From assembly GCA_022824495.1 (NCBI GenBank), contig JAJDZU010000011.1, forward strand, positions 1 to 64,000: DNA of 64,000 nt, in the 5' to 3' direction. The notes below the pieces were generated by a model, which searched no databases, was not told where the DNA came from, and was given only the letters and a program-made list of their open reading frames with translations. This stretch comes from Chloroflexota bacterium (GTDB taxonomy: Bacteria; Chloroflexota; UBA11872). Of this stretch, positions 6,991 through 57,879 are shown piece by piece (positions within the stretch are counted from its first letter, which is position 1; each line of letters opens with the position of its first letter). A program made the translations under genes and the position numbers.

Positions 6991-7479
6991 TCAGGACCGA
7001 GTCCGTGCCATCCGCGACGAGTCGGCGGCGAGGGCGCGACCGCAGTGCGTGCAGAAGTTTGCCGGCGAGTCGTTGGTCCGGCCACAGGCAGCGCACACCA
7101 CACTCATAGGGAACTGTGCGCCGCAGTTCGAACAATAGTTCGCATCGTCCGGATTGGAGTGACCGCAAGACTGACACGATCGTCGCCAGCGACCAGCGAC
7201 GGCGGGATTGCCCGGGCGTGACGGTGCGCCGTCACGGGCCGTGATGAGTTGCCGGGTATTCAGGTCAAGGGTCCGGGCCAACGCCCGAATGTCATCTTCC
7301 GGCACGAATGTGATCTTGCCCGTCTCGACATCACTCAGCCATGGCCGGTCCCGGCCGATTTCGGCGGCGACCTGAGACTGCGTGAAGCCGTGCAGTCGCC
7401 GCGCGGTGAAAATCAGACCGCCGAGCATTCCGCGATCAATGTCGTTGAATGCGCGCTTCTGTAGCTTGCGACGCGCCAT
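6991..7479 (-). CDS. XRE-family DNA-binding protein with C-terminal double zinc ribbon
   Basis: A two-part protein of 162 residues. Residues about 15-75 form an XRE/Cro helix-turn-helix (ARRLHGFTQSQVAAEIGRDR, LSDVETGK), likely binding DNA. The C-terminal half holds four CxxC pairs (CQSCGH, CSNCGA, CAACGR, CTHCGR), that is, two tandem zinc ribbons of the zinc-ribbon_2 type. The ATG at 7479 fits the domain start; an upstream in-frame ATG at 7560 would add a Cys/Ser-rich tail that looks non-coding. Target genes are unknown. The ribbon style resembles that on the three membrane proteins at 9.5-12.8 kb. Confidence 0.75.
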   Translation of the reverse strand: MARRKLQKRAFNDIDRGMLGGLIFTARRLHGFTQSQVAAEIGRDRPWLSDVETGKITFVPEDDIRALARTLDLNTRQLITARDGAPSRPGNPAVAGRWRRSCQSCGHSNPDDANYCSNCGAQFPMSVVCAACGRTNDSPANFCTHCGRALAADSSRMARTRS

Positions 7480-7670
7480 AGGCGACCGATTCAGTTGCCC
7501 GCAATCGCTGCGGCTATCCTGGCATGACGAGCTTGTCGAAGCTCGGCAATTTCGCAACAAACGTCCGGCATTCGGTAAAGCGTACCTGATAGCTGCCCGC
7601 TGGTATTCAGAATTGTCGCGACATTATGAACTGGGCGGCTAATGGTGCCCCGAGCCCGGGCGCGATTCCG

Positions 7671-8101: not shown

Positions 8102-9442
8102 CTACTCGGCCAGCAGCTGCGCCGCCCGGCTTTCGGCGGCCTGCGCATGTCGGCCCATGCCGAAATATCGGAATCCAAACGCGTGCATTCGGGCGGGATC
8201 ATAAAGATTGCGGCCGTCCACCAGCACGTCCCCGCGCATGGCCTCGCGCACGGCTGCCCAGTCCAGTTCTCGAAACTCATTCCACTCGGTAGCCAGCACA
8301 ATCGCGTCCGCCCCGGTCGCCGCCTCGAGCGCCGAGGTGTTGAATGTCACCGAGCGCCCGAGCACGGCCCGCGCCTTTGGGGTGGCCACGGGGTCGTAGG
8401 CGCGGACGCTGGCGCCCTCGCCGGCCAGCAGGTGGGCGATCTCGATGGCCGGCGCGTCGCGTACGTCATCGGTATTCGGCTTGAACGAGAGGCCCAGCAG
8501 CGCGACCTCGCGGCCACGCAGGCCGCCAAGCGCTTCGCGCAGCTTGCGAACGGCCGACCGCCGGGCGTCGCGATTGATCTCAATCACGGCACGCAGCAAC
8601 TGCGGATGCGCCCCATGCACCGAGCCCATGTGTTCCAGCGCGCGGACGTCCTTTGGAAAGCAACTGCCGCCCCAACCCAGCCCGGCATTCAGGTAGGCGG
8701 GACCCACGCGGCCGTCCAGCCCCATGCCGTGCGCCACCACCTCCACGTCCGCGTCCAGCGCCTCGCAGATCGCCGCAATCTCGTTGATAAACGAAATTCG
8801 CGTGGCCAGGAATGCATTGGAGGCGTACTTGATCATCTCGGCCGTCCGCAGGTCCGTCACGATCACCGGACAGTCGAAGGATCGGTACAACTCAGCCACA
8901 CGCTCGGCGGCGTCGGCGTCAGAGGATCCAATCACCACCCGGTCAGGGTGTAGGAAGTCTTGAACCGCGGTGCCCTCGCGCTGAAATTCCGGATTGGATA
9001 CCACCGGGAACCGTGCGCCGTCCGCCCGGTGTTCGTGAATGATCCGCGAAATCAGGTCGCTGGTCCCAATGGGCACGGTGCTCTTCGTCACAATCAGCGC
9101 GCCCTCCGAAAGGACGGGCGCCAGCGCCACCGCGGCGCTGTCCACGGCCAGCAGGCTGGCCTCGCCGGCGGCGCCCGTGGGCGTATCCACCGCGATGAAC
9201 ACAAACTCCCGATCGGGAACCGCGGCGGAATAGTCCGTGGTAAACGTCAGGCGTCCGGCGGTGACGTTGCGCGAAACCAGCGATTCGAGTCCCGGCTCAT
9301 AGATCGGCACGCGCCCCGCGTGCAGCCCGGCGATCTTGGCCTCGTCGATATCCAGGCACGCCACGTCGTGCCCCAGGTCGGCGAAGCACGCGCCCACCGA
9401 GAGCCCCACATAGCCGGTTCCGACAATGCAGATCGCGCTCAT
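8102..9442 (-). CDS. UDP-glucose 6-dehydrogenase family nucleotide-sugar dehydrogenase
   Basis: Oxidises UDP-glucose (or a similar NDP-sugar) to the uronate with two NAD+, feeding capsule or cell-surface glycan synthesis. The ATG at 9442 places the Rossmann motif GTGYVG at residues 8-13; the catalytic Cys is in GGSCFPKD near residue 261, and the central TEMIKYASNAF-like helix reads AEMIKYASNAF. Length, 446 residues, is normal for the family. UDP-N-acetylmannosamine dehydrogenases share these motifs, so substrate is by family likelihood. It lies directly upstream of the LysM protein. Confidence 0.9.
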   Translation of the reverse strand: MSAICIVGTGYVGLSVGACFADLGHDVACLDIDEAKIAGLHAGRVPIYEPGLESLVSRNVTAGRLTFTTDYSAAVPDREFVFIAVDTPTGAAGEASLLAVDSAAVALAPVLSEGALIVTKSTVPIGTSDLISRIIHEHRADGARFPVVSNPEFQREGTAVQDFLHPDRVVIGSSDADAAERVAELYRSFDCPVIVTDLRTAEMIKYASNAFLATRISFINEIAAICEALDADVEVVAHGMGLDGRVGPAYLNAGLGWGGSCFPKDVRALEHMGSVHGAHPQLLRAVIEINRDARRSAVRKLREALGGLRGREVALLGLSFKPNTDDVRDAPAIEIAHLLAGEGASVRAYDPVATPKARAVLGRSVTFNTSALEAATGADAIVLATEWNEFRELDWAAVREAMRGDVLVDGRNLYDPARMHAFGFRYFGMGRHAQAAESRAAQLLAE

Positions 9443-9495
9443 GGACCGATCATCGCACGCGGCGTCCAGCGCGCGGGACAATCTCCCTCAATGGC

Positions 9496-10478
9496 CTACG
9501 GTCGGACAACCGAGCCGCCGCCATCTTGAATCGCGCACCCATAGGGTCGTTCGCCCGCACAGTTCTGGCAATACCGCAGCACAGTCTGGTTCATGACGTC
9601 GCAGGACCGGCACTGACACTGCGCGGCGCCGCGCCATGCGCACCAGATTCGAGTCCGTCGGATGGCGAAGTTGTCCGCACCACCTGGCGAAACAGTACGT
9701 CCTGCATCTCGTTGACGCGATACATGATCCGGATGATGCGTGCCGCCGCAACAACCAAGGCTGCCGTTGAAATCACCTGCAGCACACCGGCGGCATACAG
9801 CTGGGTGACACCGTCAAGGAAGCGATAGTAATCCCAACCCCCCGACATTACAGCCGGAGCGAAACCAAGCGTCATCCAGGCAATCTCAAGGGCAATCCAC
9901 CAGACCAGCACGGATCTCCAATCAAGCGGCAGGGTCCCGTTGGTGGAGCGTGCGCCGCTGGAAACCCACAGGCGACTGACGACGACAAAAGGTCCCACGA
10001 GGCTGGCGGCCGCCGCCGCATGGAGCGCGACGTGTAATTGCCAAGCGTTCGAATCGGTTTCGCGGACGACAACGTAGGTCACTGCCAACGCAGGGAACAG
10101 AACGAACAGGGAAAGGAGCAGCAATTCCGATCGTGGTCGCATGTCGGGCGCCGGGAGCACGCGCAGGTTTCCAATCGCCTGGAACAGCCAGATCAGGAAT
10201 GCGATACACGCCAGGACCAGGCCGAGCACCCCGAATCCGCCGACCACGGCCAGGACTTCAAACCAGATGTACACGGACAGCCGGAGCTCCTCGTAGGCCT
10301 CAGCGCCCTGATCTGCCAGCGCGGCGCCCTGCGCGATGAAGAACACGCTTGAAATCAGCAGCGCCGTCGCCAAGAGAGTCACTGAGATGCCGATTGTGCA
10401 ACTGGCAAACAGCGCCGGCTGTCGGTTCCGCCAATAGCCGCGGAGCGCTGTTTCGGCAGCGTGGCTCGAAGTCGACAT
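9496..10478 (-). pseudogene. DUF4328-like multi-pass membrane protein, copy A, frameshifted before its zinc ribbon
   Basis: First of three tandem paralogs. The uninterrupted frame (10478 down to 9591) has about six hydrophobic segments and the loop IGNLRVLPAPDMRPRSELLL, matching copy B (SVANLRVLPVSDLRLPSG). In this frame the protein ends before any zinc ribbon. The missing ribbon lies in a neighbouring frame downstream: CQCRSCDVMNQTVLRYCQNCAGER, ending at 9496. A single lost base around 9610-9640 would explain it. The membrane part may still be made; alternatively ribosomal slippage or a sequence error. Function unknown. Confidence 0.65.
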
Positions 10479-10730
10479 GATGCCCTCATGATGGCACTCG
10501 CGCATCCGATTCGGGGACTACTCGACGCGCCGCGGCCGCTGCATTCCCGACACCTGCGTTGGGCCAACTCGTTTCGTGATTCAATTCAGCGCCAATGCAC
10601 GAGAATGGTCCCGGACGGTGCGAGCCGGCGTGCGGCTTTCAATCCCGCCGGTCAACGTGGCTGAGCGTCACTCACCCTGCCGACCATGGCCTGAGGCGCC
10701 AACGGGCACCCCACGTGAGGCGGTTGCGGC

Positions 10731-11768
10731 CTATTGCCGTTCGCTCGCGCAGTTCTGGCAGAACCGCAGGGCGGTCGGGTTCAAGAAGTCGCACGACGCG
10801 CACTGCCACTGCGCGGCGGCGCGAGTCTCATGTGACGCGCCTCGGCGCTCTATCTTCGGCGTTGGCTCCGGAAGGTTACGCGCTAGCCCGTCCTGCATCG
10901 CGTTGATGCGGAACATGATGCGAATGATGAAAATTGCCGCTACCACAAGGGCTGTGGCCAGAGCTAGTTCGAGAAGGCCGCGAACAACATAGAAGCTCAA
11001 CACCCCCACATGGTTGTTCCAGGTAGGCGCTGGCAGCACCGTGTACAGAACCCAGGCAACCCACCCGGAGACGTAGGCCGACCACCAAACAAGAACGCCG
11101 CCCCATACTGGCGGCTCCGATCCCTCGGTTCCCTGCGTGCTGCTGGCTACCCAGAGGCGGCGAATGACAACAAACGGCAGAGTCAAGCTCATCGTCACCG
11201 CCACGGCCAGCGCGACTTTGAGCGCCGTGGCCTCCGGGTAAGTCAGGCGCAGCCAGGTGAAGGCCCAAACAAGCGCCGGAGTGAGCAGGACTGGCGGAGC
11301 GAGCAAGAGACCCGATGGCAAACGAAGGTCGGAAACTGGTAGCACGCGCAGATTTGCCACGGAGCGAGCAAGCCAGAACGTCAATGCAATGCCTGCGAGC
11401 GCTGTGGCGACAATCCCGGCGGCGGCGACCAACCCCACGTAGATCCTCCAACTGTTCACCGACGGCGACATCGCGCGGTATGCGTCGGTTCCCTGACTTG
11501 TCACGATCGCGCCAGCTGCGAAGTTGGAGATCGCGAGAGTCAGGAAAGGAGGCGCGAGCAGGACCGTGCCGAGAATGACCAGCGCCCTAGCAACAAGAGC
11601 GCGACGTCGGTTTGAGCGATAGGCGCGCATCAGTGATCGCGCAGCCCCGACGTCGCCCGGGTCACCAGTCGCCCTTTGGCTCGTCGGCGAGGCGCCCGCC
11701 GCGTGGGCAACGCGAAATCCGAAGCCTTCGGTTCCATGCTTGCGATCAGGCCGCCGGTCAGCTCCCAA
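10731..11768 (-). CDS. DUF4328-like multi-pass membrane protein with C-terminal zinc ribbon, copy B
   Basis: Second paralog. Membrane segments begin after RSNRRRALVARALV; the likely real start is the ATG at 11630 (MRAYRSNRRRAL), since the upstream extension looks unconserved. About six helices are seen, with the conserved cytoplasmic loop LARSVANLRVLPVSDL between the second and third. The C-terminus is a CxxC-CxxC ribbon, WQCASCDFLNPTALRFCQNC, probably binding one zinc in the cytoplasm. DUF4328 has no known function; a role in sensing or assembly is a guess. The gap to copy A is 225 bp with no other gene seen. Confidence 0.75.
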   Translation of the reverse strand: MGADRRPDRKHGTEGFGFRVAHAAGASPTSQRATGDPGDVGAARSLMRAYRSNRRRALVARALVILGTVLLAPPFLTLAISNFAAGAIVTSQGTDAYRAMSPSVNSWRIYVGLVAAAGIVATALAGIALTFWLARSVANLRVLPVSDLRLPSGLLLAPPVLLTPALVWAFTWLRLTYPEATALKVALAVAVTMSLTLPFVVIRRLWVASSTQGTEGSEPPVWGGVLVWWSAYVSGWVAWVLYTVLPAPTWNNHVGVLSFYVVRGLLELALATALVVAAIFIIRIMFRINAMQDGLARNLPEPTPKIERRGASHETRAAAQWQCASCDFLNPTALRFCQNCASERQ

Positions 11769-11804
11769 AACTCACCGTCGACTGCAGGCGAGAAGTACGT
11801 ACAG

Positions 11805-12806
11805 CTACCCCCGTTCGCCCGCGCAGTTCTGGCAGAACCGCAGGGCGGTCGGGTTCTGGAATTCGCAGTGTCGACACTGCCACCGGACGGGAGTCTGCCG
11901 CGCGGGCGGGACGACGGGCGCTGGCGGATCGGGGGAGGCTTCCGATGAGTTCACGGTCGCAACCGTTGGTTCCCCGATCTTCTCGCTGGTGTCAGGGGCA
12001 GGCGGCGTGGGAAGGGTGCGCGCCAGAAGTTCCTGCATGGCGTTGACGCGGGACATGATGCGAACGATGAGAACCGCGGCCGTTGCCAGCGAGACTCCGG
12101 CAACCAGTTCAAACACCCCGTTGGCCAGCGCCAACATCGTCCCTTCGAGGGGATGGGATACGGCGAGCCGCGACGAAATCCAGAAGACTGTGAAGGCGGC
12201 CCACCAGATCCTGACGCCCTCCCAAACAGGCCCGCGTGTGCCGTCGGGGCCGCCAAGGCCGCTCCCCGCCAGCCAAAGACGACGGACGACGTGGTAGGGC
12301 CCGACCATGCAGGCGACGACCACCGCGGTTGCAGCCAGCGGACGCGCCCAGCCGTCCAAGGCTTCGTGGACCGCGAACAGCGCTGGAAGCAGCACCACGA
12401 ATGAAGCCACGGCCCAGCTTGGCCGCGCACGCACACTCGGAGTTCCAAGCGCACGCAGGTTCGCCGCGGCTTGACCAAGCCAGTGCAGGAAGGCCAACCC
12501 GGCCACGAGCATGATTCCGTACCACACACTTCGGGTCGGAATCAAAACTCTCTCGATTTCAGCCAGCGGGCCGCGCCCCCAGTCATTTACGCGGGGATAG
12601 ACGTGTTGCAGCGGGAGCCAGTCGGGCGCCGCCAGCAACACCCCCGTGGCAACGTAGGCAGTGCCCCGCACAAGCATGTCGACCACACCGACGGCGGTGC
12701 ACAAGACAATCAGTCCGCAGGTCACGCGCGCGACGCGTCGTAGTGAGCGGAATTCTCCTGCCGGCTTTGGCGAAGCGGAAGCGGGCGGTGTGGCAGCCGC
12801 CGTCAT
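11805..12806 (-). CDS. DUF4328-like multi-pass membrane protein with C-terminal zinc ribbon, copy C
   Basis: Third paralog, 333 residues, with the same layout: about six hydrophobic segments, the loop LGQAAANLRALGTPSVRARPSW, a long Pro/Thr-rich spacer, and the ribbon WQCRHCEFQNPTALRFCQNC at the extreme C-terminus. It is more diverged from A and B than they are from one another. Its start overlaps by four bases the end of the TrkA-C fragment upstream on the same strand, suggesting co-translation. Function unknown. Confidence 0.75.
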   Translation of the reverse strand: MTAAATPPASASPKPAGEFRSLRRVARVTCGLIVLCTAVGVVDMLVRGTAYVATGVLLAAPDWLPLQHVYPRVNDWGRGPLAEIERVLIPTRSVWYGIMLVAGLAFLHWLGQAAANLRALGTPSVRARPSWAVASFVVLLPALFAVHEALDGWARPLAATAVVVACMVGPYHVVRRLWLAGSGLGGPDGTRGPVWEGVRIWWAAFTVFWISSRLAVSHPLEGTMLALANGVFELVAGVSLATAAVLIVRIMSRVNAMQELLARTLPTPPAPDTSEKIGEPTVATVNSSEASPDPPAPVVPPARQTPVRWQCRHCEFQNPTALRFCQNCAGERG

Positions 12807-13195
12807 TTGCCAGCCTGCTCCGCAAACCGCCGAACGTTGGGCGGCGGGCCGATCATGACCAGGACGTCGAGCGGACGAAGCGCCTCGTCTCGGGCCGGCA
12901 GGAATTGCTGTCCACCGTCACGCCCAATGCCCGTCACCTCGACACCGTGTCGACGCAGGCCAACGTCGCCGATAGTGCGGCCCATGTACGAACCGTCGGG
13001 CGCGATGGACACCTCTCGAATGGTCATGCCCTTGGACTTCTCATCCAGCAGCTCCGAGAGTGCCCCGGCCAAATTGGGCTTGAGCACATACGAGGCCATA
13101 GGTTGGGCGTTGGCCGTGCGCGTCGAGAACACCCGCGTGGCCCCGGCCACCGTCCGTCGATCAACGGTCTCGTTGGTGATTGCCCTGGCGATCAC
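12803..13195 (-). pseudogene. TrkA-C (RCK) fragment of a potassium channel/transporter regulator, N-terminally truncated
   Basis: The 130 residues align with the end of a TrkA-N/RCK domain (PVIARAITNE...DRRTVAGATRVFS) followed by a complete TrkA-C domain (MTIREVSIAPDGSYMGRTIGDVGLRRHGVEVTGI... RPLDVLVMIGPP). The NAD-binding GxGxxG half and any pore helices are missing. The reading frame is the same as that of arsA upstream and is separated from it only by the arsA stop, so the truncation junction lies near 13200-13220. It may be expressed from the GTG at 13195 as a lone ligand-binding domain, but is more likely a remnant. Confidence 0.65.
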
Positions 13196-13219: not shown

Positions 13220-14437
13220 CTAGTCGCTGGGGCTCCGGGCGGCCGACGCGGTTGGCTGGCGCGGCGAAAAGCGGATGCGGAGTTGACCGTCCTCCAGGCG
13301 GGCGCCGCTGTGGGTCATCCGGGCCAGCACGCGCGGCAGCACGATGTTGCGGCGGGCGGCGCCCATGCGGATGACCAATTCGTCCCCGCGACGAATAAGG
13401 GAAGCGTTTGACTTCTCCAGGAACGGCGCCGGGATGCGGAATTCAAAGCCGCCCTTCACTTCCGCAATCTCGTACGGCTTGTAGTCAATCAGCCGCTCGG
13501 CCGGTTCGGAGGTGGCGTGCATCTGGCCGCCCATGACGCGAAGGCGCTCGAGCCCAACCACTTCCTCGGCGAACTGATGGACCTGCAGAATCGGGATTGG
13601 GTCGAACATGGCGTGGATGTCACCCAGGTAGGGCGCCTGCATGGCACGGCGCTGCTCGGCGAAGCGCCCCTCGGCCTCCTCGGGCACTACGCGGTTCACA
13701 ATCACCGCGTCGGTGATGTGGTCGTACAGGGTCAGGTAGGTGTAGCTGCGCTGGGCCTCCCGGATCACCATGCGCTCGGGGTTAACCACCAGGCGCACGG
13801 TTGTCGTGTTTGAGGCGGTCAGGGTGTCGTGCAGCTGCTGCAATTCGTCCACCAAGTCGGTCATGGCCTCGAACACGTCGTCCTCGGGCAGCGGCAGGTC
13901 GGTGACGCGGCGGGCCATCGGCCGCACCATGCGGGCCAGGTGGCGGTTGATGGGCAGCAGTTTGTCCAGCCACCAGCGGCCGACTTCCGGGAACGCCAGC
14001 AACCGCAGGGTCTCGCCCGTGGGTGCGCAGTCCACCACCACCACGTCGTACTCGCCCGAGGAAGCGTGCCGGTTCACCCAGAGCAGGTTGGCCAGTTCCT
14101 CCATGCCCGGAAAGACGGCAATCTCATCGGCCAGCACGTTGTCCATGCCGCGCCAGGTCAGCACGGCTTCCACCCAGTTCTGCACCGTGCCCCAATACGT
14201 TTCAAGGTTGTAGTACACGTCGCATTCCTGCGCCCACAGGTTGTCAACCACGGGCTTGGGAACCGGTCCCAACGGGGTGTCCAGCGAGTCGCCCAGGCTA
14301 TGCGCGGTGTCGGTGCTGAGCACGACGGTTCGCAGGCCGGCGTCGGCGCAGCGCAGCGCCGCCGCCGCGGCCACGCTGGTCTTACCCACGCCCCCCTTGC
14401 CGGTATAGAGCAGGATGCGCGGCGAGCGCTTAGTCAT
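13220..14437 (-). CDS. ArsA/Get3-family anion-transporting-type ATPase
   Basis: A 405-residue SIMIBI-class ATPase. The deviant Walker A GKGGVGKT is at residues 13-20 with the first signature Lys; switch I shows STDTAHSLGDSLD, and switch II VDCAPTGETLRLL. The C-terminal 90 residues (GGFEFRIPAPFLEKSN...) form the HSP20-like domain found in many bacterial ArsA homologs. Family roles range from arsenite efflux to tail-anchored protein targeting; with no arsB, arsR or arsC nearby, arsenic resistance is not supported. It overlaps the 3' end of selD by eight bases, so the two are cotranscribed. Confidence 0.88.
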   Translation of the reverse strand: MTKRSPRILLYTGKGGVGKTSVAAAAALRCADAGLRTVVLSTDTAHSLGDSLDTPLGPVPKPVVDNLWAQECDVYYNLETYWGTVQNWVEAVLTWRGMDNVLADEIAVFPGMEELANLLWVNRHASSGEYDVVVVDCAPTGETLRLLAFPEVGRWWLDKLLPINRHLARMVRPMARRVTDLPLPEDDVFEAMTDLVDELQQLHDTLTASNTTTVRLVVNPERMVIREAQRSYTYLTLYDHITDAVIVNRVVPEEAEGRFAEQRRAMQAPYLGDIHAMFDPIPILQVHQFAEEVVGLERLRVMGGQMHATSEPAERLIDYKPYEIAEVKGGFEFRIPAPFLEKSNASLIRRGDELVIRMGAARRNIVLPRVLARMTHSGARLEDGQLRIRFSPRQPTASAARSPSD

Positions 14438-15509
14438 CGTTGTCGTCGAGGGTGTCCATCGGGCGAACGTACATCAAGTATGAGTCTCGTGCGGTAATCC
14501 GGCCCACGGTGGCCGCCGGTGCACCGGCGTGCTCAAGGGCATGCCGCAGCGCGGCTTCGTCCTCCGGCGGAATCGCAATCAGCAGCCCGCCGCTCGTTTG
14601 CGCATCGGCCAGCAGAAGACGCGCGGGCCGATCCACCGCCGCGTGCCAGCGAACATCGCCTTCCAGCGAGGCCAGGTTGCGCTCGGTCCCGCCGGGAACC
14701 TCATCGGCGGCAATCAGCGACCAGACCTCGGGCAGCGTTGGGATTCTGTCAGCGTAAACCTCAGCCGAGACGCCGCTGGCGTTCAGCATCTCGCGCAGGT
14801 GACCCAGCAGGCCGTAGCCCGTCACGTCGGTTACGGCGTGCGCGCCATGATCGCTGGCGGCCCTGGCCGCTGCCGCATTGAGTGTGGTCATGGACTCGAC
14901 CGCTGCATCCAGCGCGGCCTGGCTGGCGGCGTCGAACTTGCCTGCGGTTGTGATGATCCCGGTGCCCAGCGGCTTCGTCAGCACCAGCAGATCGTCCGGA
15001 CGCGCTCCCGCGTTCGTGCTGACGGCGTCCGGATCCACGGTTCCGAGCACCGCCAGGCCGAACTTGGGCTCGGGATCGTCGATCGAATGCCCGCCGCCAA
15101 TCACCGCCCCGGCTTCCCGCACCTTGTCAGCGGCGCCCTGCTGCACCTCGGCCAGCAGATCCAGCGGCAGCGTTCCGCGCGGCCAGCCGGCAATGTTGAG
15201 CGCCAGGATTGGCGTGGCGCCCATGGCGTAGAGGTCGCTCAGGGCGTTCGCGGCGGCGATGGCGCCAAAGCTATAGGCGTCATCCACGATCGGCGTAAAG
15301 ACGTCTGTCGTAAGGGCAACGGCCAGGTCGTCGCGAAGCCGGAACACGGCGGCGTCGTCCATGCCCTGCCCCCCGACCAGCAGGTCGGGCGACACCATCG
15401 GCGGCATCAGGCGCAGCACGTGCGCCAGCTCGTCAGGGCTGAGCTTGCAGGCTCAGCCGGCGCCGTGGGCGTACCGGGTAAGTTTGAGCGGCGTGTGTTC
15501 GCTATGCAT
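14430..15509 (-). CDS. selD: Selenide, water dikinase with selenocysteine at residue 19
   Basis: Makes selenophosphate from selenide and ATP, the selenium donor for tRNA-Sec. The naive frame begins at MLRLMPP, but the conserved N-terminus lies upstream: from ATG at 15507-15509 it reads MHSEHTPLKLTRYAHGAG-TGA-ACKLSP. The TGA (15453-15455) is exactly at the catalytic Cys/Sec of SelD (family GAGCACK), so it is read as selenocysteine. Downstream are GGGHSIDDPEPKFGLAVLG and DVTGYGLLGH, the normal ATP and substrate motifs; full length 359 residues. A hairpin follows the TGA at once. It is cotranscribed with arsA. Confidence 0.92.
15421..15449 (-). promoter_or_regulatory. Putative bacterial SECIS hairpin in selD
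   Basis: Starting four bases after the selD TGA, the mRNA can fold UGC-A-AGCUC, loop AGCCCUGAC, GAGCU-GGC-GCA. The AGCUC/GAGCU stem is perfect and the closing UGC/GCA pairs. Bacterial SECIS elements sit directly downstream of UGA and bind SelB through the apical loop. Size and distance fit; the loop sequence has not been tested. Confidence 0.5.
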
Positions 15510-15580: not shown

Positions 15581-16909
15581 GTGCCGTCACTGTCGCCGTG
15601 CGCCCGAGCCAGCCAGCGCGTTATTGCATTGGCCCTGGCGGTCGGGCTGCTGTTGGCGGGCGCCGGACAGGCCGCCGCCGCACCGCCGCCGAACGCCACG
15701 CCGGTGACGGGCGGCGCCTTCTTCCAGCCCGGGGATACGGACGGCCTTGGATTCGCACTCCGAAATTACGTCGACGGCCCGGCCTTCTACGATGCATTTC
15801 TTCGTTTCGGCGGCGCCCGGACGCTCGGACCCGCGGTGTCGCGGCCCTGGATTGACGACGGTGGCTTCGCCTATCAGCTGACACAGCGTGCCCTGCTTCA
15901 GTGGTCGCCCTCGGACGATCGGGTGGGGATTGCCAACCTCTTCGAGCTCCTCAACCGCAGTGGATTTGCCGCTGAACTCGAGGCGCGTCACATTCCCGCG
16001 GCCGAAGCACCACCGTCCCGTCCGCCCGAGTTTGCGAGACAGGCACGGCTGGCCTGGCTGACGGACCGAGCTATAGCCGAGACCTTTGCCAACAATCCGC
16101 TGGAGCTCGGAAACCTGGACGCCAGCATTGAGTTTCACGGCTTGCCGATGTCGCGTCCGGTGCGATTGGGACCGTTCGTGGTTCAACGCTTCCAACGGAC
16201 GGCGCTGCAGCACTGGGTGGAGGAGGTGGAGGGAGGGCAACCGGTTGGCTCGGTCGTGCTGGTGAACGCGGGCGATATCTACCGCGATCTCGCGTTGCCA
16301 GACGATCTGCTGGCGACGCCGCACGCCTCGGACCAGAGCGCGGTGCTGGATGTCCGTCTGGATCCGCCCGAGGCGGCCGGCCTCGTTCCGGCCAGGGTCG
16401 CGTTGCGCACGTACAACACGACCAACCACCTCCTGCGCACGGCGCTGGCGCTGCTGGAGAGCGTGGACGCCAACGCAGCCGCGCTAGAGCTGGCGGAACG
16501 TGATCAACTCGCCATTGAATTCGAATCGATGACCGAAGGGGTGCTGGCCTCGTTTAATCCCGCGCTGGGCATTCGGGTCAACGACGGCTTACGTGCTGAA
16601 GACCCGATCCCTCTCGCGGCGGTGCTGGCGCACGAACTTCGACACTTCGAGGACTACAAGCTCGGCCAGCTTGGCGACGACGCCCAGGATTGTCTGGAAG
16701 CGGAGGCACGCGCGCTGCAACGGGAGGCCGAGACCTGGACCGCACTGATTGCCGCCACCGATCAGTCGCTCCACGAGACCTTGCTCGTCCGCATCGAAAC
16801 CAGGCGCGCCGCGGTTGCCGGGGAGGGCACGGAGGCCATTGAACGTCTGGCCAGGCGCCTCTACCGCGAAGTCTGCGTGAAAAGGGCGATCCAGATCGCC
16901 AAGAGTTGA
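15581..16909 (+). CDS. Secreted putative zinc metallopeptidase with N-terminal repeat-like domain
   Basis: A 442-residue exported protein: signal peptide with hydrophobic core ALALAVGLLLAGAGQAAAA. Residues about 45-235 form a domain (FQPGDTDGLGFAL...GGARTLGPAVSRPW, GLPMSRPVRLGPFVVQRFQR) also seen at the front of the serine hydrolase at 24.9 kb. The C-terminal half carries HELRH at residues 351-355 within VLAHELRHFEDYK, the HExxH zinc motif, with downstream Glu residues (CLEAEARAL, 371-379) as candidate third ligand. Peptidase action is inferred from this motif only. Divergent from selD with a 71-bp gap. Confidence 0.7.
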   Translation: MPSLSPCARASQRVIALALAVGLLLAGAGQAAAAPPPNATPVTGGAFFQPGDTDGLGFALRNYVDGPAFYDAFLRFGGARTLGPAVSRPWIDDGGFAYQLTQRALLQWSPSDDRVGIANLFELLNRSGFAAELEARHIPAAEAPPSRPPEFARQARLAWLTDRAIAETFANNPLELGNLDASIEFHGLPMSRPVRLGPFVVQRFQRTALQHWVEEVEGGQPVGSVVLVNAGDIYRDLALPDDLLATPHASDQSAVLDVRLDPPEAAGLVPARVALRTYNTTNHLLRTALALLESVDANAAALELAERDQLAIEFESMTEGVLASFNPALGIRVNDGLRAEDPIPLAAVLAHELRHFEDYKLGQLGDDAQDCLEAEARALQREAETWTALIAATDQSLHETLLVRIETRRAAVAGEGTEAIERLARRLYREVCVKRAIQIAKS

Positions 16910-57640: not shown

Positions 57641-57784
57641 TCCAGGCTGAGCGTCCCAAGACGCTTTGGCCGGTGATCCCGCTCTTGTCCAGCGTCCTTT
57701 GTACGTCAAGGAACATTGGCTGGAGCGTGTCTTGCGCCGGTAGCAGCGCTTCCTGACCCTCCCACGCTGAGGGTATCCCCGGGG

Positions 57785-57879
57785 CGGAGGTGCATGGGAG
57801 TCGAACCCACCTGGAACGCTCACCAGCGCCCCACAACGGTTTTGAAGACCGCGAGGACCACCCGGCCCCGTCCACCTCC
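57785..57879 (-). tRNA. selC: tRNA-Sec (anticodon TCA)
   Basis: Reading the minus strand, the RNA starts GGAGGTG, pairing with CACCTCC at the 3' end, with G as discriminator. Anticodon stem GCGGT/ACCGT closes the loop CTTCAAA with anticodon UCA (57843-57845), which reads UGA. The extra-long variable arm (GGGGCGCT/AGCGTTCC, eight pairs), six-pair D-stem and T-loop TTCGACT are typical of bacterial tRNA-Sec, and size, 95 nt, agrees. CCA is not encoded. The eighth acceptor pair is a G-G mismatch by my fold. With SelD it demonstrates selenocysteine insertion. Confidence 0.95.

Follow-up and report, generated by a model that had tools for sequence, protein, structure and literature searches.

Membrane protein bodies exchanged beside a constant cysteine-rich ribbon in a tandem gene array of Chloroflexota

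Here we describe a candidate case of recombination among tandem paralogs in a Chloroflexota bacterium, analyzed in a 64,000-nt stretch of contig JAJDZU010000011.1 (assembly GCA_022824495.1; henceforth the window, its genome being G000 in all genome comparisons). Three paralogous minus-strand genes, termed A, B and C, lie between a UDP-glucose dehydrogenase gene (UGD, 8102–9481) on one side and, on the other, an open frame for a TrkA_C domain (12803–13195), followed by an ArsA gene and a SelD-like gene. B and C each encode a predicted membrane body with a short cysteine-rich C-terminal motif, the ribbon. The reading we tentatively prefer is a fast-turnover array in which variable six-helix bodies sit on a constant cytoplasmic ribbon and are exchanged by recombination at or beside the ribbon ends. 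Sequence comparisons support the exchange of bodies and an enrichment of junctions at ribbons; that homologous recombination is the agent, and at what rate it acts, we infer.

Exchange of bodies beside the ribbon

The bodies fall into types A, B1, B2, B3 and C1–C3 in a body tree, with 25–54% identity between types. Setting this tree against a tree of the flanking genes, together with the presence or absence of the array in the pair G009/G012, shows turnover of the array, with bodies changing between close species. G001 and G006 are 95% identical to the window genome in flanking genes and encode A proteins 93–96% identical to its own, and their B genes (B3 against B1 in the window, 42–43%) and C genes (C3 against C1, 42%) are of different types.

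The place at which homology changes can be followed along the DNA. Over intervals of 60 nt, G000 and G006 are mostly 93–100% identical from UGD through A to the ribbon of B, beyond which identity falls to about 60%. Base by base, there are two mismatches in 10561–10768 and dense mismatches upstream, which places the switch at the B ribbon; segmentation puts it at 10814. The two genomes have in common the 3′ half of the B ribbon and the DNA beyond it and carry different B bodies, and G001 compared with G000 shows the same switch at lower identity. In C, only 2 of 787 body positions differ between G000 and G010 (99.7% identity), whereas the flanking genes of these two species are only 88% identical; judged from these identities, the segment is horizontally exchanged between them. 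Across 15 genome pairs, two-state segmentation gave 40 homology breakpoints, 16 of which lie within 40 nt of a ribbon, with 5.2 expected under a uniform distribution. No P value is attached to this clustering because the genome pairs share history and are not independent.

Codon choice was compared at identical residues between copies of different types in one genome, for 15 of the 22 array copies, 12 of them in frame (G010_B1, G008_C, G008_B1, G001_C, G004_B3 and the second and A copies of G012 were omitted). The same codon was found at 75 of 101 residues in ribbons (expected fraction 0.54) and at 187 of 454 in bodies (expected 0.45). In the window's own B–C pair, the ribbon count was 17 of 18 (9.9 expected, P 0.0004) and the body count 23 of 69 (31 expected). 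Body codons are thus saturated between paralogs and ribbon codons unusually alike; overall, therefore, sharing of DNA is more recent for the ribbons than for the bodies that precede them.

At the protein level, 11 of 30 ribbon columns are invariant among 13 aligned in-frame ribbons, with the tryptophan, the asparagine and the four cysteines invariant in all 13; when the in-frame ribbons of G012 A and G004 B3, which lie outside this alignment, are added, 8 of 30 columns remain invariant, these six residues included. The ratio of nonsynonymous to synonymous substitution rates (dN/dS) of the ribbon is 0.13–0.25 in the B3 and C3 types and 0.55–0.67 in C1. An initial annotation, made from the sequence alone, had called the ribbon nearly invariant, a description that fits the in-frame copies; 9 of 22 copies are interrupted. 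By these comparisons, its near-invariance is partly a product of recombination and partly of constraint.

The features of the array are as follows.

9591–10478, minus strand: gene A, a DUF4328 membrane body cut off before the ribbon by a one-base deletion common to G001 and G006
9544–9621, minus strand: former ribbon of A, out of frame with the A body, with few and unconstrained-looking changes (dN/dS about 1)
10731–11630, minus strand: gene B (type B1), a DUF4328-like body with a C-terminal ribbon, 299 aa when begun at the likely ATG
10734–10811, minus strand: ribbon of B, QWQCASCDFLNPTALRFCQNCASERQ, the site where homology to G006 switches
11805–12806, minus strand: gene C (type C1), a DUF4328-like membrane body with a C-terminal ribbon, 333 aa
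11808–11885, minus strand: ribbon of C, RWQCRHCEFQNPTALRFCQNCAGERG, 87% identical to G001/G006 and flanked by stretches of about 50–65%
11896–12682, minus strand: body stretch of C with 2 mismatches in 787 nt against G010, the apparently exchanged segment
12803–13195, minus strand: TrkA_C domain left over from a 2TM-RCK K+ channel, which G001, G008, G012, G009 and G002 have at full or nearly full length

The start of B is probably the ATG at 11630, as the TTG at 11768 that opens the listed reading frame falls upstream of the conserved region.

Turnover of the array and its locus

Protein searches with B and C found the family in 7 of 61 genomes, all from one Chloroflexota genus represented by 13 genomes. 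A profile search over 400 genomes of the phylum matched 18: the same 7 genomes, and 11 more in which the matches are short and weak and, by profile position, fall in the ribbon (7) or the body (4, one of them running across a stop). The gene order SelD–ArsA–channel–array–UGD–LysM–XRE is kept. The same flanking genes are collinear in the array-less genomes G005, G007, G009 and G011; in array-less G003 the channel is gone from the locus too, and in array-less G002 the two flanks lie apart. G009 and G012 are 98% identical in the flanking genes and only G012 has an array, the channel of G009 stopping about 36 nt before the likely ATG of UGD. Conservation of the neighborhood therefore holds for the place of the array, kept in 7 of the 13 genus genomes, and fails for its gene content, since bodies are swapped.

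Nine of the 22 array copies in the seven genomes are interrupted (the A copy of G012, split over two contigs, is counted once, as intact), and in six of the nine the body is whole and the ribbon alone is lost. They comprise the A copy of three genomes, traced to one event, the B1 copy of two genomes with the same stop, the C copies of G001 and G008, the B3 copy of G004 and the second G012 copy; single cases could be assembly errors.

Such losses are what the chief rival explanation builds on, ordinary birth-and-death of dispensable paralogs with a generic ribbon, conversion where copies are most alike, many copies dying and no special hinge. We consider it possible, if somewhat unlikely. Besides the interrupted copies, it gains from the failure to find the array in 6 of 13 genus genomes, from the decay of the neighboring channel gene, from C1 bodies that look weakly constrained and from the occurrence of this ribbon type on other proteins (by reading of open reading frames, a kinase, an FHA-like and an SPFH-like protein). 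It fits less well with ribbon-less B1 bodies that are still open and constrained: comparison of G010 with G008, in each of which a stop precedes the B1 ribbon, gives a dN/dS of 0.39 with a simulated P of 0.005 or less. The A body of G000 gives 0.35–0.36 against G001 or G006 (P 0.01–0.06). By these ratios, one or more of the ribbon-less body types has been retained under purifying selection. The in-frame ribbons with their 11 invariant columns, and a C body exchanged between species at an identity far above that of its flanks, also argue against birth-and-death. The result that would have undone the initial proposal, a ribbon that is a common unrelated add-on in a cluster that is not conserved, is half borne out, as the ribbon does occur elsewhere and gene content is swapped, but the place is kept.

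The exchange reading itself has to accommodate several observations that weigh against it. Twenty-four of the 40 breakpoints lie more than 40 nt from a ribbon, some of them being alignment ends and some gene starts or the end of the array. Six within-genome ribbon pairs entered the codon comparison, of which one reached P 0.0004 and three 0.03–0.04 (uncorrected); in the other two, identical codons were not clearly in excess (P 0.41 and 0.67). Constraint on bodies is uneven: the A body of G001 against that of G006 gives a dN/dS of 0.39 that is not significant (P 0.11–0.21), truncated A against the intact A of G004 is neutral-like at 0.66–0.77 (P 0.40–0.68, one pair simulated), and C1 bodies are weakly constrained (0.46–0.76), the ribbon-bearing pair of G000 and G010, at 0.76, being indistinguishable from neutral (P 0.40–0.56). 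No clear pattern of diversification focused on predicted outer loops emerged; between body types, conservation is lowest in loop 5 (19%). Part of the locus is accounted for by plain decay, given the 9 interrupted copies among 22, and the assemblies may contain chimeras at these loci. In the flank tree, support at deep nodes is weak (31–59), so gains and losses cannot be placed in order.

The adjacent channel suggests another explanation, in our view improbable, by which the array proteins are accessory subunits of the 2TM-RCK K+ channel, with C translationally coupled to it and its relatives varying the channel's membrane surroundings or regulation. ATGA or GTGA stands at the channel stop and C start in all five genomes with C1 or C2, and the channel or its remnant adjoins C in all seven arrays. 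In the window, C begins at an ATG that shares bases with the stop codon of the channel remnant upstream (ATGA); in G004, the remnant seems to have slipped out of frame immediately ahead of this overlap. However, the array persists in four of the seven array genomes with only a TrkA_C remnant (G000, G004, G006 and G010), and intact-looking channels occur without an array in G009 and G002. Across the 13 genus genomes the channel has been lost repeatedly (L136–L141), being truncated in four, internally deleted or broken in three (G005, G007 and G011) and, in G003, not present at the locus.

The XRE-type protein reported near the array is indeed present, as a helix-turn-helix (HTH) protein with two similar ribbons at 6991–7560 (HTH_31 2.2e-10, Zn_Ribbon_1 2.9e-12), and lies beside the LysM protein and UGD at every locus read. 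It occurs in 13 of 13 genus genomes regardless of the array, including the six that lack it, and was rejected as a linked partner. Its weak PADLOC matches run through the HTH part (best RmrA, E 4.8e-5). For A, B, C and a distant solitary relative, PADLOC gave no defense-system match up to E 0.1. G012 carries this relative as a frame of 375 codons with the ribbon at its C-terminal end; G005 and G017, the latter from another genus, have broken copies. The broken copies (L144, G005:C48; L145, G017:C34; wider L155, L156) sit between CRISPR-like repeats, six in G017, among them four on one side at a spacing of about 61 nt, and two in G005, and the 97% identity of the DNA there across two genera suggests horizontal transfer. 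A type I restriction-like HsdR gene, by reading of its open reading frame, lies near the G017 copy.

The ribbon, the membrane body and gene A

B as a query retrieves A at E 1.1e-42 and C at E 1.7e-21, so the triplication in the initial annotation stands. Its family label applies in full to A, which passes the Pfam DUF4328 profile (PF14219; 30.9 bits, E 2.4e-7, gathering cut-off 27.2); B (12.0 bits) and C (17.2 bits) fall below the cut-off and are termed DUF4328-like because they are homologous to A. Likewise, the loop ANLRxLxxxDxR, attributed to all three, is found in B and, except for its first letter (GNLR), in A, but C has ANLRALGTPSVR and B3-type copies are without the motif. DUF4328 is a Pfam domain of unknown function; the name occurs in no paper of the library searched, and a literature search covering search results and the openings of abstracts brought up nothing on this family. 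The proposed search for DUF4328 with a ribbon showed that the pairing recurs: among 20 over-cut-off proteins of other Chloroflexota genera (four weaker matches were not included), the ribbon precedes the membrane domain in 8 and stands at the C-terminus in none. These proteins have the same membrane domain, with A over the cut-off, and often a ribbon; the array differs from them in its C-terminal ribbon, its tandem genes, its exchanged bodies and the sub-threshold scores of B and C.

The AlphaFold model of B, built from 14 sequences (pLDDT 77), consists of six long helices and a low-confidence tail, and the N-terminus of B is basic (MRAYRSNRRR). Together these suggest that both ends of the protein, ribbon included, are cytoplasmic, in line, as a prediction, with the cytoplasmic orientation first proposed. 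Compared with solved structures, no fold stood out for the membrane body: the best Foldseek E-value was 0.057, and the best VIA match (Z 10.1, rmsd 5.0, 208 aligned) is under the level trusted for helical bundles, the VIA matches being mostly rhodopsins at Z 9–10, a level common for such bundles.

The ribbons of B and C, which do terminate both proteins as first described (CASCDFLNPTALRFCQNCASERQ in B, CRHCEFQNPTALRFCQNCAGERG in C), follow the pattern WxCxxCxxxN(x6)CxxC, and the four conserved cysteines make a putative zinc-binding site. They fit the pattern of RanBP2/NZF fingers (PF00641), W-x-C-x(2-4)-C-x3-N-x6-C-x2-C. With PF00641 and the generic zinc ribbons PF13240 and PF24463 they share W-x-C-x2-C-x3-N-x6-C-x2-C and weak profile scores, B and C staying under the curated cut-offs (for PF00641, 27 bits against 16.4 in C and 10.1 in B), and differ in sitting on a membrane protein. 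A ribbon profile searched against solved structures ranked rubredoxin first, with the NZF fingers of TAB2/3, NPL4 and RNF31 among the best matches at weak E-values of 0.04–0.1. In NZF fingers, a Thr-Phe dipeptide after the second cysteine contacts ubiquitin; at this position, B and C have Asp/Glu-Phe and the other 11 aligned ribbons Asp/Glu-Val or -Tyr. That the ribbon is an Npl4-type finger binding ubiquitin or a ubiquitin-like protein is therefore very unlikely in spite of the NZF fingers among its best matches, given those E-values, the higher rank of rubredoxin, the missing contact pair and a spacing that is equally that of the XRE protein's generic ribbons.

The claim that A, too, ends in a ribbon, and with it that of a conserved metal site in all three proteins, did not hold. 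The membrane frame of A stops at 9591 (...SVSAGPATS*), the ribbon CRSCDVMNQTVLRYCQNC at 9559–9612 lies in another frame, and the position 9496 at which the initial annotation began is the end of that other frame. Comparison with the A gene of G004, which is in frame, identifies a one-base deletion common to G000, G001 and G006. The cysteine positions of the out-of-frame ribbon are still intact in these three genomes, as would be expected if programmed ribosomal frameshifting completed A and gave all three proteins a ribbon. We rejected this highly improbable reading because the downstream ribbon frame looks unconstrained, with no sign of purifying selection in few changes (dN/dS about 1; one synonymous and five nonsynonymous between G000 and G001, none and one between G000 and G006) and with the tryptophan codon now a cysteine codon; a single inherited deletion accounts for all three genomes, the G004 gene is in frame, and no slippery heptamer was seen when the A sequence was inspected by eye. 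In G001, the out-of-frame ribbon (L042, G001:C18:41778–41855) differs from that of G006 by a cluster of changes resembling the ribbons of other paralogs, which suggests conversion even of a non-translated ribbon.

The SelD-like gene, an AIR-synthase family member at 14430–15419, and a tRNA-Sec at 57783–57879 indicate that the organism may make selenoproteins. A selenocysteine reading of the TGA codons in the array was rejected, the ribbons of G008 C and of G008 and G010 B1 being otherwise damaged around or after the TGA. Farther along the window, 15581–16909 encodes a protein with a sub-threshold match to the putative metallopeptidase family DUF6782 (21.3 bits, cut-off 27).

A possible constant plug for variable bodies

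In the mechanism we propose, the ribbon-coding 3′ end of about 80 nt would be the constant part of each gene and the membrane body the variable part, and homologous recombination at or beside the ribbon ends would swap, add or delete bodies, between paralogs as well as between species. Each body may recognize something at or in the membrane, and the ribbon may act as a fixed cytoplasmic docking plug for a common partner, so that one body could replace another and leave the cytoplasmic wiring as it is; A and other bodies that lack a ribbon might be additional subunits of a mixed assembly. The more specific proposition that this is a body-swapping system, with ribbon DNA serving as both adaptor and homology hinge and diversified membrane receptors or channels held on one signaling plug, we regard as rather doubtful.

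The layout recalls surface-antigen gene-conversion arrays (such as pilin, vls and Msp2; e.g. PMC4534519). In such arrays, variable segments likewise recombine beside constant ends. In contrast to those arrays, whole genes with their own starts are exchanged here, the constant end is a cysteine-rich, predicted cytoplasmic tail, and a single expression site was not seen at this locus.

Should the ribbon prove to be a constant plug beneath exchanged bodies, it would be the part to use as bait for a common partner, and the bodies would be the variants in which to look for a ligand. The array also illustrates that the apparent high conservation of a protein tail can stem in part from recombination that reuses the underlying DNA, and not from selection on the protein alone.

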